DNA from: a virus
Length of the DNA stretch: 28,860 nucleotides
Virus record (IMG/VR): IMGVR_UViG_3300021137_000068
Span: 1-28,860 of that record
Reading direction: 5' to 3' (one strand)
The notes under the pieces: model-generated
Database searches by the model: none
Told to the model about the DNA's origin: nothing
The model's input: only the letters and a program-made list of their open reading frames with translations
Position numbers and translations under genes: made by a program
Shown: in pieces, positions 12,303 to 19,627 of the stretch
Position numbering within the stretch: position 1 is the first letter of the stretch
How the letters are laid out: every line of letters starts with the position of its first letter

Positions 12303-12335
12303 GATAAATACTTGTGCAACACAAAGGTTGCACAA
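12303..12335 (+). promoter_or_regulatory. Late-like GATAAATA followed by a 9-bp hairpin in the folE leader
   Basis: GATAAATA (12303-12310) is a one-base variant of the T4 late -10 box. Just after it, TTGTGCAAC (12312-12320) and GTTGCACAA (12327-12335) form a perfect 9-bp stem with a six-base loop. No T-run follows, so it is not a typical terminator. The 14 bases TAAATACTTGTGCA (12305-12318) recur exactly at 25384-25397, also followed by an inverted repeat. Confidence 0.5.
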
Positions 12336-12370
12336 CGTCAAAACAAAACCATCACAACGGAGGGTTATCT

Positions 12371-13048
12371 ATGAGTTTTAATAAAACAAAATGCGATCCA
12401 GAACTGGGTCTTAAAGTGCATGAGCACTTAGTCAAAATGGGTGTTGAAACACCTACAATACAAAACAATCTTGACCGTAAAGAAAAGATTGAAAAGATTG
12501 AACTTCATTTTACTGCTATAATGCAAGCACTAGGGTTAGATTTAACCGATGATAGCTTGATTGAAACACCTAAGCGTGTTGCCAAAATGTTTGTAAATGA
12601 GGTGATGTGGGGTTTAGATTATGAAGCATTCCCAAAATGCACCACAGTGGATAATAAGATGCATTACAACGAAATGGTTGTTGAGCGCAATGTGTCGGTA
12701 CAAAGCAATTGCGAACATCATTTTGTCGTTATCGACGGTCTTGCAACTGTTGCTTACGTGCCCAAACAGAGAGTCTTGGGCTTATCAAAAATTAATAGAA
12801 TCGTTGAATACTTCTCAAAGCGCCCACAAATTCAAGAGAGGCTCACTGAGCAAATCTTTCACAGCCTTCAGTACATTCTTGAAACCGAAGATGTGGCGGT
12901 TCTTATTGACGCCCGACACTACTGTGTTGCAGCAAGAGGGGTAGAAGATACTGGTAGTTCAACTGTTACTGTTCGTCTAGGTGGTGGTTTTAAAACTGAT
13001 CCATCTGCCAGAGCAGAGTTCTTAAGCATTGCTCGTCAGGGTAAATGA
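12371..13048 (+). CDS. folE: GTP cyclohydrolase I
   Basis: This 225-residue enzyme, near the usual length, converts GTP to dihydroneopterin triphosphate, the first step of both folate and 7-deazaguanine synthesis. The zinc site is visible as NCEHHF (Cys114, His117) and HYCVAARG (Cys185). GLSKINRIVEYFSKRPQIQE (137-156) and DTGSSTVT (193-200) match the E. coli enzyme closely. The start at 12371 is supported by ACGGAGGG seven bases upstream; an earlier in-frame ATG lies inside the leader hairpin and is rejected. Its product feeds QueD (14436), QueE (15108) and DpdA (8131). Strong similarity to proteobacterial FolE suggests capture from a host. Confidence 0.96.
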   Translation: MSFNKTKCDPELGLKVHEHLVKMGVETPTIQNNLDRKEKIEKIELHFTAIMQALGLDLTDDSLIETPKRVAKMFVNEVMWGLDYEAFPKCTTVDNKMHYNEMVVERNVSVQSNCEHHFVVIDGLATVAYVPKQRVLGLSKINRIVEYFSKRPQIQERLTEQIFHSLQYILETEDVAVLIDARHYCVAARGVEDTGSSTVTVRLGGGFKTDPSARAEFLSIARQGK

Positions 13049-13903: not shown

Positions 13904-14361
13904 TATTCAACAAAATTAAAAAACTTAAACAGGATGGAAAGATAATTGGAATTACTTTCTCAACTTTTGACCTACTTCATGCGGGGCATATTGCTATGCT
14001 ATCTGAGGCTAAAAATCATTGCGACTATCTTATTGCAGGGCTCCAGACTGACCCCACAATTGATAGACCAGATACAAAAAACAAACCTGTACAATCAGTG
14101 GTGGAAAGACAAATTCAATTGGCGGCATGCCGTTATGTTGATGAAATCGTTGTTTACCAAACAGAACAAGATTTGATTGACTTGATATTGATTCTTCCTA
14201 TTGATGTTCGTATCTTAGGTGTAGAGTATCAAAGCCAAGACTTTACCGGTCGTGCTCAAGGTGCTCAAAAAGGTATCAACCATGTGTTCAATAGTCGTGA
14301 CCATTCATTCAGTTCAAGTGGACTAAGAAAAAGGGTCGCAGAAGCACAAAAAGGTAAATAA
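13900..14361 (+). CDS. Cytidylyltransferase-like nucleotidyltransferase
   Basis: This 153-residue protein has the HxGH-superfamily core. FSTFDLLHAGHIAMLSEAK (about residues 20-38) holds the HAGH nucleotide-binding motif, and near the C-terminus HSFSSSGLRKRV corresponds to the S/T-S-x-x-R-x-R-like closing motif. Such enzymes (TagD, RfaE C-domain, glycerol-3-phosphate cytidylyltransferases) join CMP or AMP to a phosphorylated substrate. Length equals a single-domain member. The substrate is unknown; with glycosyltransferases and an epimerase nearby, an activated sugar or alcohol for glycan or DNA decoration is plausible. It ends 74 bases before queD. Confidence 0.8.
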   Translation: MIFNKIKKLKQDGKIIGITFSTFDLLHAGHIAMLSEAKNHCDYLIAGLQTDPTIDRPDTKNKPVQSVVERQIQLAACRYVDEIVVYQTEQDLIDLILILPIDVRILGVEYQSQDFTGRAQGAQKGINHVFNSRDHSFSSSGLRKRVAEAQKGK

Positions 14362-14365
14362 AGAT

Positions 14366-14428
14366 AGCGGTCTTAGGCGTCAACCCGCTTGATAAATTCT
14401 GCCGCCTATGCTATAATTAACATAGGAG
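14366..14428 (+). promoter_or_regulatory. Candidate preQ1-I-like riboswitch of queD
   Basis: An H-type pseudoknot can form. Stem 1 is AGCGG (14366-14370) with CCGCT (14385-14389); stem 2 is TAGGCG (14374-14379) with CGCCTA (14403-14408). Loops are 3, 5 and 13 bases. The shape and the loop end CAACCCGCT resemble class I preQ1 aptamers. CCTATG (14405-14410) can instead pair with CATAGG (14421-14426), which covers the TAGGAG Shine-Dalgarno (14423-14428). The two pairings exclude each other, so forming the pseudoknot would free the ribosome site. This is read by eye, without alignment or folding energies. Confidence 0.4.
14389..14417 (+). promoter_or_regulatory. Sigma70-type promoter overlapping the queD leader
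   Basis: TTGATA at 14389-14394, 17-bp spacer, TATAAT at 14412-14417. Transcription would start near 14424, at the Shine-Dalgarno itself, so this transcript would lack the pseudoknot described at 14366. CCTATG and CATAGG flank the -10 box symmetrically and could also be a DNA operator. Confidence 0.65.
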
Positions 14429-14435
14429 AAAATTA

Positions 14436-14933
14436 ATGCAACCAATAACATACAAATATACAAGTACTAAAGAGTACCATGACGCATTTCCTTGCGCTTA
14501 TCGTCAATGGCGAGCAGATAGCCATTGTAATTTGATTCATGGCTATAGCTTCAGTATGAAGTTCTACTTTGGTACAAACGACCTTGATGTTCGCCACTGG
14601 GCCGCAGACTATGGCGGACTAAAAGAATTGAAGAAGTTGTTAGAGGATATGTTCGACCATACCCTTCTGGTCAGTTCTGATGACCCGGAACTTGAAACAT
14701 TTAAACTATTACAAGAAAAAAACATGGCAAAAATTGTTGTGCTATCCAAACTAGGTTGTGAAAGTCTTAGCAATATGCTTTATAAGTATATCAATGGAGT
14801 TTACATTCCTGACATGTGGGGTCCAGGAGAAGCAGAACGACTTTGGTGCTATCGTGTAGAAGTTAGAGAAACACAAAGTAACATGGCTTTTAGGGAGGGG
14901 CATAGGTGCTGGAATGAGGATTTATTCGCATGA
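14436..14933 (+). CDS. queD: 6-carboxytetrahydropterin synthase-like (QueD)
   Basis: This 165-residue protein of the QueD/6-pyruvoyl-tetrahydropterin synthase family uses the FolE product to make 6-carboxytetrahydropterin. Visible are the catalytic Cys in SHCNLIHGY (Cys31, His35), [21 protein letters not shown] with the conserved Asp-His pair, and [12 protein letters not shown] near the C-terminus. Two usual zinc ligands look changed: the HGH motif reads HGY, and the FxAAH position reads FPCAYR. Other His residues (15, 30) may compensate. I have seen this variant in marine phages. TAGGAG lies eight bases before ATG. It overlaps the following dfrB-like start by ATGA and is expressed with it and queE. 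Confidence 0.85.
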
Positions 14934-15121
14934 GCAAATTTAAATTAGGTGATTTAGTAAAAAAGGTTTCAGGTTCACAGTGGCACGGAACAGTTGTTGG
15001 TACATATTCAACTGAGTTAACTCCGGAAGGTTATGCAGTTGAAAGTGATACAGAAAAAGGCTCTGTTCAGATTTATCCTGCCAAAGCACTTGAATTGTGG
15101 AGTAAAAATGAGCAAAATTAA
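14930..15121 (+). CDS. Type II dihydrofolate reductase (DfrB/R67-like)
   Basis: This 63-residue SH3-like protein is very similar to plasmid R67 DHFR (78 residues). [23 protein letters not shown] and [12 protein letters not shown] align with R67 [23 protein letters not shown] and GSVQIYPVAALE. The active-site VQIY (46-49) is intact, as are the equivalents of Lys32 and Trp38; R67 Trp45 is Thr here, and the disordered R67 N-terminus is absent. R67 forms a tetramer with one central pore and is naturally trimethoprim-insensitive. The position between queD and queE suggests a folate or pterin reduction step, or a product-channel partner. It overlaps queD by four bases and queE by 14. Confidence 0.85.
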
Positions 15122-15950
15122 AGTATCAGAACTGTTTTACAGTATACAAGGTGAAGGTCGTTACATGGGTGTACCAAGTGTGTTCTTACGCACATTTGGT
15201 TGCAACTTCAAGTGTGATGGCTTTGGAATGCCTAAAGGTGAGTTGTCAGTAGAGAGATTTAATGTACAACCAGAAAAATATAACTCATACAAAGAACTTC
15301 CTCTCGTCAGCACAGGATGCGATAGTTACGCTAGTTGGGACCCTCGTTTTAAGGATCTTAGTCCTGTGATTGAGTCAAGTGGTATTGTTGATAGCATTAT
15401 GGATATACTTCCTCACAAGCGTTGGATGGATGAGCACTTGGTTATCACAGGCGGTGAACCGTTATTAGGTTGGCAAAAAAGCTATCCTGATTTATTGAGC
15501 AACTATCGTATGGCTGCTCTTAAAGAACTAACATTTGAAACAAATGGTACTCAAGAATTGAGTGGTGATCTAGTTGAGTTTTTACAAAACTGGAAACGAA
15601 ATCGTGAAAAGAACGCACTTACCTTTAGCGTAAGTCCTAAACTATCAATAAGTGGAGAAGATTGGAATGAAGCAATACGCCCTGATGTTATACGTCAATA
15701 CCAAAATGTGGGCTTTGTATACCTTAAGTTCGTGGTTGCATCAGAAGAAGACTTACAGGAAGCAGAACGGGCTGTAAATGAATATCGTAGCTGTGGCTTT
15801 ACCGGTCCTGTTTATCTTATGCCTTGCGGTGGGGTTGAGAGTGTATACGCCCTAAACAACAGAGCAGTGGCAGAAATGGCAATGCGAAAAGGATGGCGTT
15901 ACTCAGATAGACTACAAGTGCCCCTCTTCAAAAACGAATGGGGAACATGA
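15108..15950 (+). CDS. queE: 7-carboxy-7-deazaguanine synthase-like (QueE), variant radical SAM
   Basis: This 280-residue enzyme is predicted to form CDG from 6-carboxytetrahydropterin. The opening [17 protein letters not shown], the GG(E)P motif VITGGEP and FETNGTQ fit QueE. The radical-SAM cluster motif is unusual: Cys32-x3-Cys36 is present in GCNFKC, but the third cysteine is not two residues later. It appears as Cys71 in [10 protein letters not shown], where CDSYA equals the canonical CDTxYA. A 32-residue insertion therefore splits the motif. The start at 15108 lies inside the DfrB-like gene. The next gene overlaps by ATGA. With FolE and QueD it completes the route from GTP to CDG; no QueC is seen. 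Confidence 0.9.
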
Positions 15951-18598: not shown

Positions 18599-19627
18599 AT
18601 GACTAATCAATCTATCAAACGTATCGGCTTTGCTTGCAAATGGGCAGAGATTAACAAAAAAGGCGAGATCGCCAGTGCTGAAGGTCTTAACACCGGCGGC
18701 ACTACTATGGCATGGGCGAATCGCAACAAGCGTAGTATAGTGGAGGAAAAGATTATTGACGTTGCAAAAACAAACATTGTCAATACCCACAATCTCATTA
18801 AGAAGGTCGCAACACTTCCTAATGAACTACGCATGTTACGACTAACCAGCGACATGTTATCATTCTATACACATGATGACTACAAAGACTTCTGGCAAGA
18901 TTCAAACACACAAACTTTACTCGCTAAATGGTTCGCACCATTAGGTGAAACTGCTCGTGCTAATGATGTCCGTGTTAGTTTTCACCCCGATCAGTTTGTT
19001 GTATTGGCAAGTGATCGTGACGAAGTTGTAAACAAATCTATTGAGGAGTTTGAGTATCATGCAGACATGGCCCGCTTTATGGGTTTTGGAAAGTCATTCC
19101 AAGATATTAAAATCAATGTACATATCTCAGGACGCCGTGGCCCGCAAGGCATTAGGGATGTATACCAGCGTCTTAGCCCTGAGGCACGTAACGGCTTAAC
19201 ATTGGAGAACGAAGAATACACACATGGTTTGTCTGACTGTTTATCATTGTCTGACTTAGTTCCTGTTGTATTGGATATTCATCATCACTCTATTCGGGAA
19301 GGTGAATATATTCAATCTACTGATGACCGCATTAAAAAGGTTATTGACAGTTGGCGCGGTGTTCGTCCTACTATCCATTATTCCCTCAGTAGGGAAGATG
19401 TACTTGTTAACCATTCCAGATCAGTCTTACCCGATGTTAGTGCGTTGATTGAATCAGGACATAATAAACAAAAGTTAAGGGCCCATAGTGACTATATGTG
19501 GTCAGATGCCGCTAACGATTGGGCATATACTCATTGGGATTGGGCCGATGTTATGGTGGAAGCAAAAGCCAAAAATCTAGCTAGTTTTAAACTGTTTGAG
19601 TATTGGAAAAGCCTCAAAATGAAGTGA
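18599..19627 (+). CDS. uvsE: UV-damage endonuclease (UvsE/UVDE)
   Basis: This 342-residue TIM-barrel nuclease nicks DNA 5' of UV photoproducts. Family motifs are visible: KRIGFACKW at the N-terminus, RVSFHPDQFVVL (about residues 125-136), INVHISG, the metal-binding LTLENEE (about 200-206), VVLDIHHHS (about 222-230) and TIHYSLS (about 260). The His, Glu and Asp ligands of the trinuclear metal site all seem present, so the enzyme should be active. The start at 18599 is forced by a promoter ending just upstream and implies translation of a leaderless mRNA. Its last 51 bases are antisense to the end of the GIY-YIG gene. Confidence 0.93.
   Translation: MTNQSIKRIGFACKWAEINKKGEIASAEGLNTGGTTMAWANRNKRSIVEEKIIDVAKTNIVNTHNLIKKVATLPNELRMLRLTSDMLSFYTHDDYKDFWQDSNTQTLLAKWFAPLGETARANDVRVSFHPDQFVVLASDRDEVVNKSIEEFEYHADMARFMGFGKSFQDIKINVHISGRRGPQGIRDVYQRLSPEARNGLTLENEEYTHGLSDCLSLSDLVPVVLDIHHHSIREGEYIQSTDDRIKKVIDSWRGVRPTIHYSLSREDVLVNHSRSVLPDVSALIESGHNKQKLRAHSDYMWSDAANDWAYTHWDWADVMVEAKAKNLASFKLFEYWKSLKMK

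Follow-up and report, generated by a model that had tools for sequence, protein, structure and literature searches.

The locus raises the question of whether the short leader in front of a queD-like gene of a virus is a regulatory RNA and, if so, of which class. The window, i.e., the whole 28,860-base virus contig IMGVR_UViG_3300021137_000068, had been predicted from its letters to carry in this leader an H-type pseudoknot resembling the preQ1 class I (preQ1-I) riboswitches, with loops of 3, 5, and 13 nucleotides, and a hairpin covering the Shine–Dalgarno (SD) site. Both stems, all three loops, and the SD hairpin were recovered at the positions given in Table 1, and the strand at 14405-14408 is indeed common to the pseudoknot and the hairpin, making the two forms mutually exclusive. 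The knotted RNA is about 43 letters long and is predicted to lie at the 5' start of the queD mRNA. The nested fold of 14362-14438 is unremarkable for the window sequence alone (z = -1.24); it is the pairing conserved across homologs, and not the single-sequence fold, that shows the element not to be a chance occurrence.

Table 1. Features of the queD leader and the neighboring pathway genes in the window
Feature	Position	Strand	Remarks
folE, GTP cyclohydrolase I	12314..13048	+	NF006824, above cut-off
T4-late-type promoter motif GGTAAATA	14353..14360	+	Predicted start ~14366, the first P1 base
P1 5' strand AGCGG	14366..14370	+	Pairs with CCGCT, 14385-14389
L1, TCT here (N-C-U), 3 nt	14371..14373	+	Loop counts in 243 elements
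P2 5' strand TAGGCG	14374..14379	+	Covaries with 14403-14408
L2 TCAAC, 5 nt	14380..14384	+	Final C where preQ1-I has its specificity cytosine (PMC11625349)
P1 3' strand CCGCT	14385..14389	+	Pairing and covariation
TTGATA, -35 of internal sigma-70 promoter	14389..14394	+	Overlaps P1/L3
L3 TGATAAATTCTGC, 13 nt	14390..14402	+	Consensus NUANAWAYUCUGC
P2 3' strand CGCCTA	14403..14408	+	From 14405 common to the SD hairpin
Anti-SD arm CCTATG	14405..14410	+	Pairs with CATAGG, 14421-14426
TGCTATAAT, extended -10 of internal promoter	14409..14417	+	Predicted start ~14424
Hairpin 3' arm CATAGG	14421..14426	+	Includes part of the SD
SD TAGGAG	14423..14428	+	Partly covered by the CATAGG arm
queD-like PTPS gene, 165 aa	14436..14933	+	PF01242, E=4e-15; phrog_2389 QueD-like, E=3e-34
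queE-like radical SAM gene	15033..15950	+	phrog_2076, E=7e-51

A search of IMG/VR with the QueD protein gave 80 loci whose leaders carry the same element, and pattern scans enlarged the set to 243 parsed elements, of which 240 were distinct; thinning to 90% identity left 126. IMG/VR phage contigs are the source of almost all of the 243. A covariance model recovered the element before 79 of the 80 queD homologs, the remaining one being cut 23 nt upstream. The bases on which the parser was anchored (GG in P1, UCA, CC in P1', and most of L3) are not independent evidence, as the parser required them; P2 as a whole and the three outer P1 pairs are independent. P1 was paired in 98-100% of the 126 thinned homologs, its middle pair being C-G, A-U, or U-A and its outer pair A-U or U-A, and the 5' variants AGCGG, AGTGG, AGAGG, TGCGG, and ACCGG each occurred with a matching partner. 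The first four pairs of P2 formed in 90-94% of the 126, compared with 46-76% for shuffled partners, and sliding P2 by one or two positions reduced the pairing from 91% to 16-44%. In a MAFFT alignment of 48 sequences built without structure, the covariation score was 0.545 as opposed to 0.167 after shuffling (0/500) and 0.018-0.121 for the slid registers. The comparison with leaders of related phages, which the original prediction had put forward as its check, thus showed covariation in both stems and a collapse of the register-shifted controls. Diverged leaders found by the model alone kept P1 and P2 with new pairs and had new SD hairpins (ACUCC/GGAGU, CCUC/GAGG), and a change in the SD hairpin of one homolog, L048, was compensated (CCTATA/TATAGG). 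It is virtually certain that the element is a conserved structured RNA. In many of the diverged members (L385-L405, L430, and L444) L2 reads UCGNC and L3 contains UUCCGC, and their SD hairpins differ; together the diverged members could form a second type of the same class.

The unpaired bases are nearly invariant, which points to a binding pocket. Positions 2 and 3 of L1 were C and U in 240 of the 243 elements each, while position 1 varied (T 90, A 88, C 65). L2 was mostly UCAUC (UCANC overall) and ended in C in 243/243, the UCA itself being a search anchor. L3 followed its consensus almost without exception, with the final C in 242/243 and the UCUG partly a search anchor; the diverged set carries UCCGC at the L3 end instead of UCUGC. 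Position 4 of L3 was A with an A-U or U-A middle pair in P1 and non-A with C-G in 68/68 cases, counted in sets selected for neither feature though among related sequences that are not independent. This coupling fits L3 running along P1 in an H-type fold. A first count of the same coupling was confounded by the search patterns and was set aside.

Downstream of P2 we found at least four unlike platforms, every one of them using the P2 3' strand. Subtype A, to which the window belongs, pairs CCUAUG with CAUAGG and covers the SD; subtype B pairs GUCAUC with the start-codon sequence GAUGGC and encloses CUACCUU/AAGG..UAG; subtype C pairs GCCAUUG with CAAUGGC and covers the start codon; and subtype D has short forms such as AAGUCAUC with GAUGACUU. 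Complementarity between the P2 3' strand and the initiation region was 15.3, in comparison with 9.2 after shuffling of the letters and 12.3 with permuted partners. We computed openness from nested folds before and after withdrawing the pseudoknot strands, and pseudoknot energy did not enter the calculation. On withdrawal, the predicted SD openness rose from 0.28 to 0.88 in the window leader and, on average, from 0.26 to 0.76 in subtype A and from 0.35 to 0.71 in subtype B, and that of the AUG from 0.07 to 0.30 in B, 0.12 to 0.38 in C, and 0.14 to 0.58 in D. A gain of more than 0.1 for the SD or the AUG was seen in 117 of the 125 thinned leaders. In the same nested calculation the AUG openness of subtype A falls from 0.52 to 0.25, which counts against a simple reading. 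As the P2 3' strand is complementary to the SD or start codon through unlike hairpins, formation of the pseudoknot should turn translation ON; the ON polarity suggested for the window is borne out across unlike platforms by predicted openness and complementarity. We consider it highly likely that the element is a translational switch acting through mutually exclusive pairing. Comparison of the leaders shows an H-type pseudoknot with nearly invariant loops, conserved before PTPS/queD genes, whose P2 3' strand is complementary to the SD or start codon.

The element is tied to a single gene family. A gene with the PTPS motif stood directly 3' of it in 234 of the 243 cases, and four more were cut by contig ends; of the remaining five, four have queD as the second gene and one (L161) is truncated or broken, so that the element precedes PTPS/queD in every case open to judgment. 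The genes inserted between element and queD in L148, L136, L188, and L198 look by eye methyltransferase-, cupin-, and endonuclease-like. The PTPS proteins behind the element are diverse, ~20-55% identical to that of the window, and with a threshold of 25 bits the element was found before 42 of 79 more distant PTPS genes, whereas other such genes lack it. Exactly one strong copy was present per record in 26/26 large phage records. A UvdE-type UV endonuclease gene lies at 18599-19627 of the window; UvdE may be the same family as the second-commonest gene family near the element (42/126 thinned loci).

Such constant linkage is also what could be expected of autogenous control, with the pseudoknot bound by QueD itself or by some other protein of the phage. 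The leader of T4 gene 32 is an H-type pseudoknot near the mRNA 5' end through which a protein-nucleated repression of gene 32 takes place, and T4-like phages use autogenous translational control of this sort; the queD element resembles it in its fold, in its predicted place near the 5' end of the message, in its predicted translational control, and in preceding a gene of T4-like phages, the T4 capsid family gp23 being present in 10 of 20 large records. The invariant loops could equally serve protein binding. Against this, the loops stay near-invariant in front of PTPS proteins as dissimilar as those above, which would need an unchanging RNA-binding surface, and the pseudoknot is predicted to free and not to cover the initiation site. 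We know of no mutually exclusive SD hairpin in the gene 32 leader. We regard binding of a protein as possible though unlikely and favor a small-molecule ligand, which we find fairly likely.

FolE (GTP cyclohydrolase I) supplies the substrate of QueD, and the window carries folE upstream and, likely on the queD transcript, the queE-like gene. The queD-like product scores below the NCBIfam QueD cut-off; by eye it has AYRQ and HGYS where L302 and L338 read GHRV and HGHE, and two zinc histidines that are usual in PTPS seem to have been replaced, although MAFFT aligns that stretch differently. Among the 20 large records, FolE was found in 19, a strong QueE match in 19, and QueF matches in two; matches to QueC were partial and weak, none of them convincing, and no TGT/DpdA was found. 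In two of the largest phage records, a QueF-family gene stands without clear QueC, at G009:14886-15113 and G013:457835-458062 (L301-L303 region; phage records of L238 and L300). The presence of FolE, QueD, and QueE without clear QueC or TGT suggests a product at or near CDG, which these phages appear to make. By analogy with Campylobacter phages, for which deazaguanine placement in DNA without DpdA has been proposed (PMC6884629), a CDG-like product might be put into the phage DNA without that enzyme.

Among known RNAs, preQ1-I riboswitches, of which types I-III are described (PMC11625349, PMC10622847), come nearest, and the element could be a new type of that class, sensing preQ1 or preQ0. It shares with them the small H-type pseudoknot, a P1 of about 5 bp, predicted translational control near a que gene, and, in 243/243, a C where the preQ1-I specificity cytosine stands, just before the P1 3' strand (PMC11625349). 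P1 of preQ1-I ends in a G-C pair at the pocket floor; in the element, GG/CC was found at this end of P1 in 243/243, where the anchors demanded it, and it was the same in the leaders from the protein search and the covariance model. The pocket looks different: preQ1-I has a conserved U (the U6 contact) as the first base behind the P1 5' strand, whereas the element has N-C-U, and an A-rich L3 with a pocket adenine next to P2, whereas the L3 of the element is A-rich in its first half and then nearly invariantly UCUGC, in agreement with the less A-rich tail noted at the outset. P2 is longer and variable in comparison with preQ1-I, and the preQ1-I pseudoknot buries the initiation site, which the one here is predicted to open. 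The phages lacking a convincing QueC and TGT/DpdA also fit poorly with preQ1 or preQ0. Rfam gave no match at gathering scores over the whole window, and its preQ1 families, the search of which had been named as a check of the original prediction, gave none at E<=10 when three short leaders, one of them that of the window, were searched. The matches obtained at E 0.1-10 belonged to unrelated families, lay far under the gathering scores of these, and were rejected. Thus, the preQ1-I likeness held for the architecture and the invariant C and failed for membership: with two features of the class present and three absent (the L1 uridine, the A-rich L3 end, and an Rfam match), we do not file the element as preQ1-I. 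Membership in that class is improbable, but the mechanism may be related, with a pocket of another make-up.

Other known RNAs are more distant. SAM-II is a ligand-stabilized H-type pseudoknot riboswitch; it and other riboswitches of this fold are like the element in the ligand-stabilized fold proposed here and differ in sequence and genes, with no match in Rfam. Glutamine (glnA-type) riboswitches occur in marine T4-like phages (PMC9004378) and are thus likewise found in environmental T4-like phages, but they differ in fold, ligand, and gene, and none matched here. In the literature searched, which covered few subscription papers, we found no description of a phage riboswitch preceding queD or PTPS. 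BLAST of the element consensus against cultured phages gave no match, and a model scan of six cultured-phage queD loci and L082 no convincing one. A pattern scan of bacteria and archaea gave 31 matches, by our own estimate not above the chance expectation for ~16.5 specified bases; the element itself is present in only one of them, L209, where it lies at the end of a contig of 5.9 kb that is probably phage.

The element also lies among putative promoters, both those that would set the 5' end at P1 and the internal one being additions to the original prediction. TAAATA or TAAGTA was found at -26..-10 of P1 in 26 of the 32 thinned subtype-A leaders, with 1.1 expected, and a sigma-70 -10 TATAAT upstream of P1 in 12/26 subtype-C and 21/53 subtype-B leaders; these motifs would set the mRNA 5' end near P1. 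Such a position would also suit an RNA thermometer or a constitutive 5'-end structure with no ligand that protects the mRNA or keeps translation at a set level. This reading leaves the invariant unpaired bases and the recurring unlike hairpins on the P2 strand unexplained, and we think it very improbable. The predicted internal promoter of the window, TTGATA-N17-TATAAT, spans 14389-14417 and is overlaid on L3 and the loop of the SD hairpin. It recurs at one offset with a 17-nt spacer in 24 of the 32 subtype-A leaders, with the TG of the extended -10 in 28 of the 32, and none scoring at least 10 was found in the leaders of the other subtypes; mRNA started from it would have neither the pseudoknot nor the anti-SD arm. 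That the conservation reflects this promoter DNA and not RNA is almost certainly wrong: although subtype A keeps the promoter, this reading is largely refuted as the sole cause because P1, P2, and L1-L3 are also conserved in subtypes B, C, and D, which lack the promoter, and interleaved compensatory changes are not expected from a promoter.

Taken as a riboswitch, the leader would work as follows. Without ligand, the P2 3' strand would pair downstream and hide the initiation region; a ligand bound at the invariant bases of L1, L2, and L3 would stabilize the pseudoknot, take that strand away, and so open the region. More tentatively, the invariant C that precedes the P1 3' strand may read a guanine-like face of the ligand, which makes an intermediate of the pterin or deazaguanine kind (dihydroneopterin triphosphate, CPH4, or CDG) the leading guess; deazaguanine sensing is plausible. 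In the subtype of the window, early transcription from the internal sigma-70 promoter would yield mRNA that escapes regulation, and the regulated mRNA would come from the late promoter upstream. As one gene family alone follows the element, the ligand cannot be triangulated across pathways. To our knowledge, an ON response to the end product is unusual for a biosynthetic gene, which counts against the riboswitch reading.

The leader holds a conserved, structured putative aptamer and an expression platform, as generally asked of riboswitches, and the element is a candidate new riboswitch class. We conclude that the queD leader is probably a cis-acting translational switch of an undescribed RNA class, most likely a riboswitch. 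We see an even chance for the complete picture: a new class confined to uncultured phages, in which a queD ON switch senses a pterin or deazaguanine from an early step of the pathway by means of a pseudoknot like that of preQ1-I but altered in its pocket, and in which the same 60 bases hold a switch-free early promoter. The set displays one fixed putative aptamer joined to several unlike expression platforms. Riboswitches have been described as rare in phages (PMC9004378). If true, the class would be specific to phages and widespread among environmental viruses, and it would belong to a pathway from which phage DNA can receive substitutes for guanine; its ligand would reveal the real product of phages that have FolE, QueD, and QueE and lack a clear QueC or TGT.
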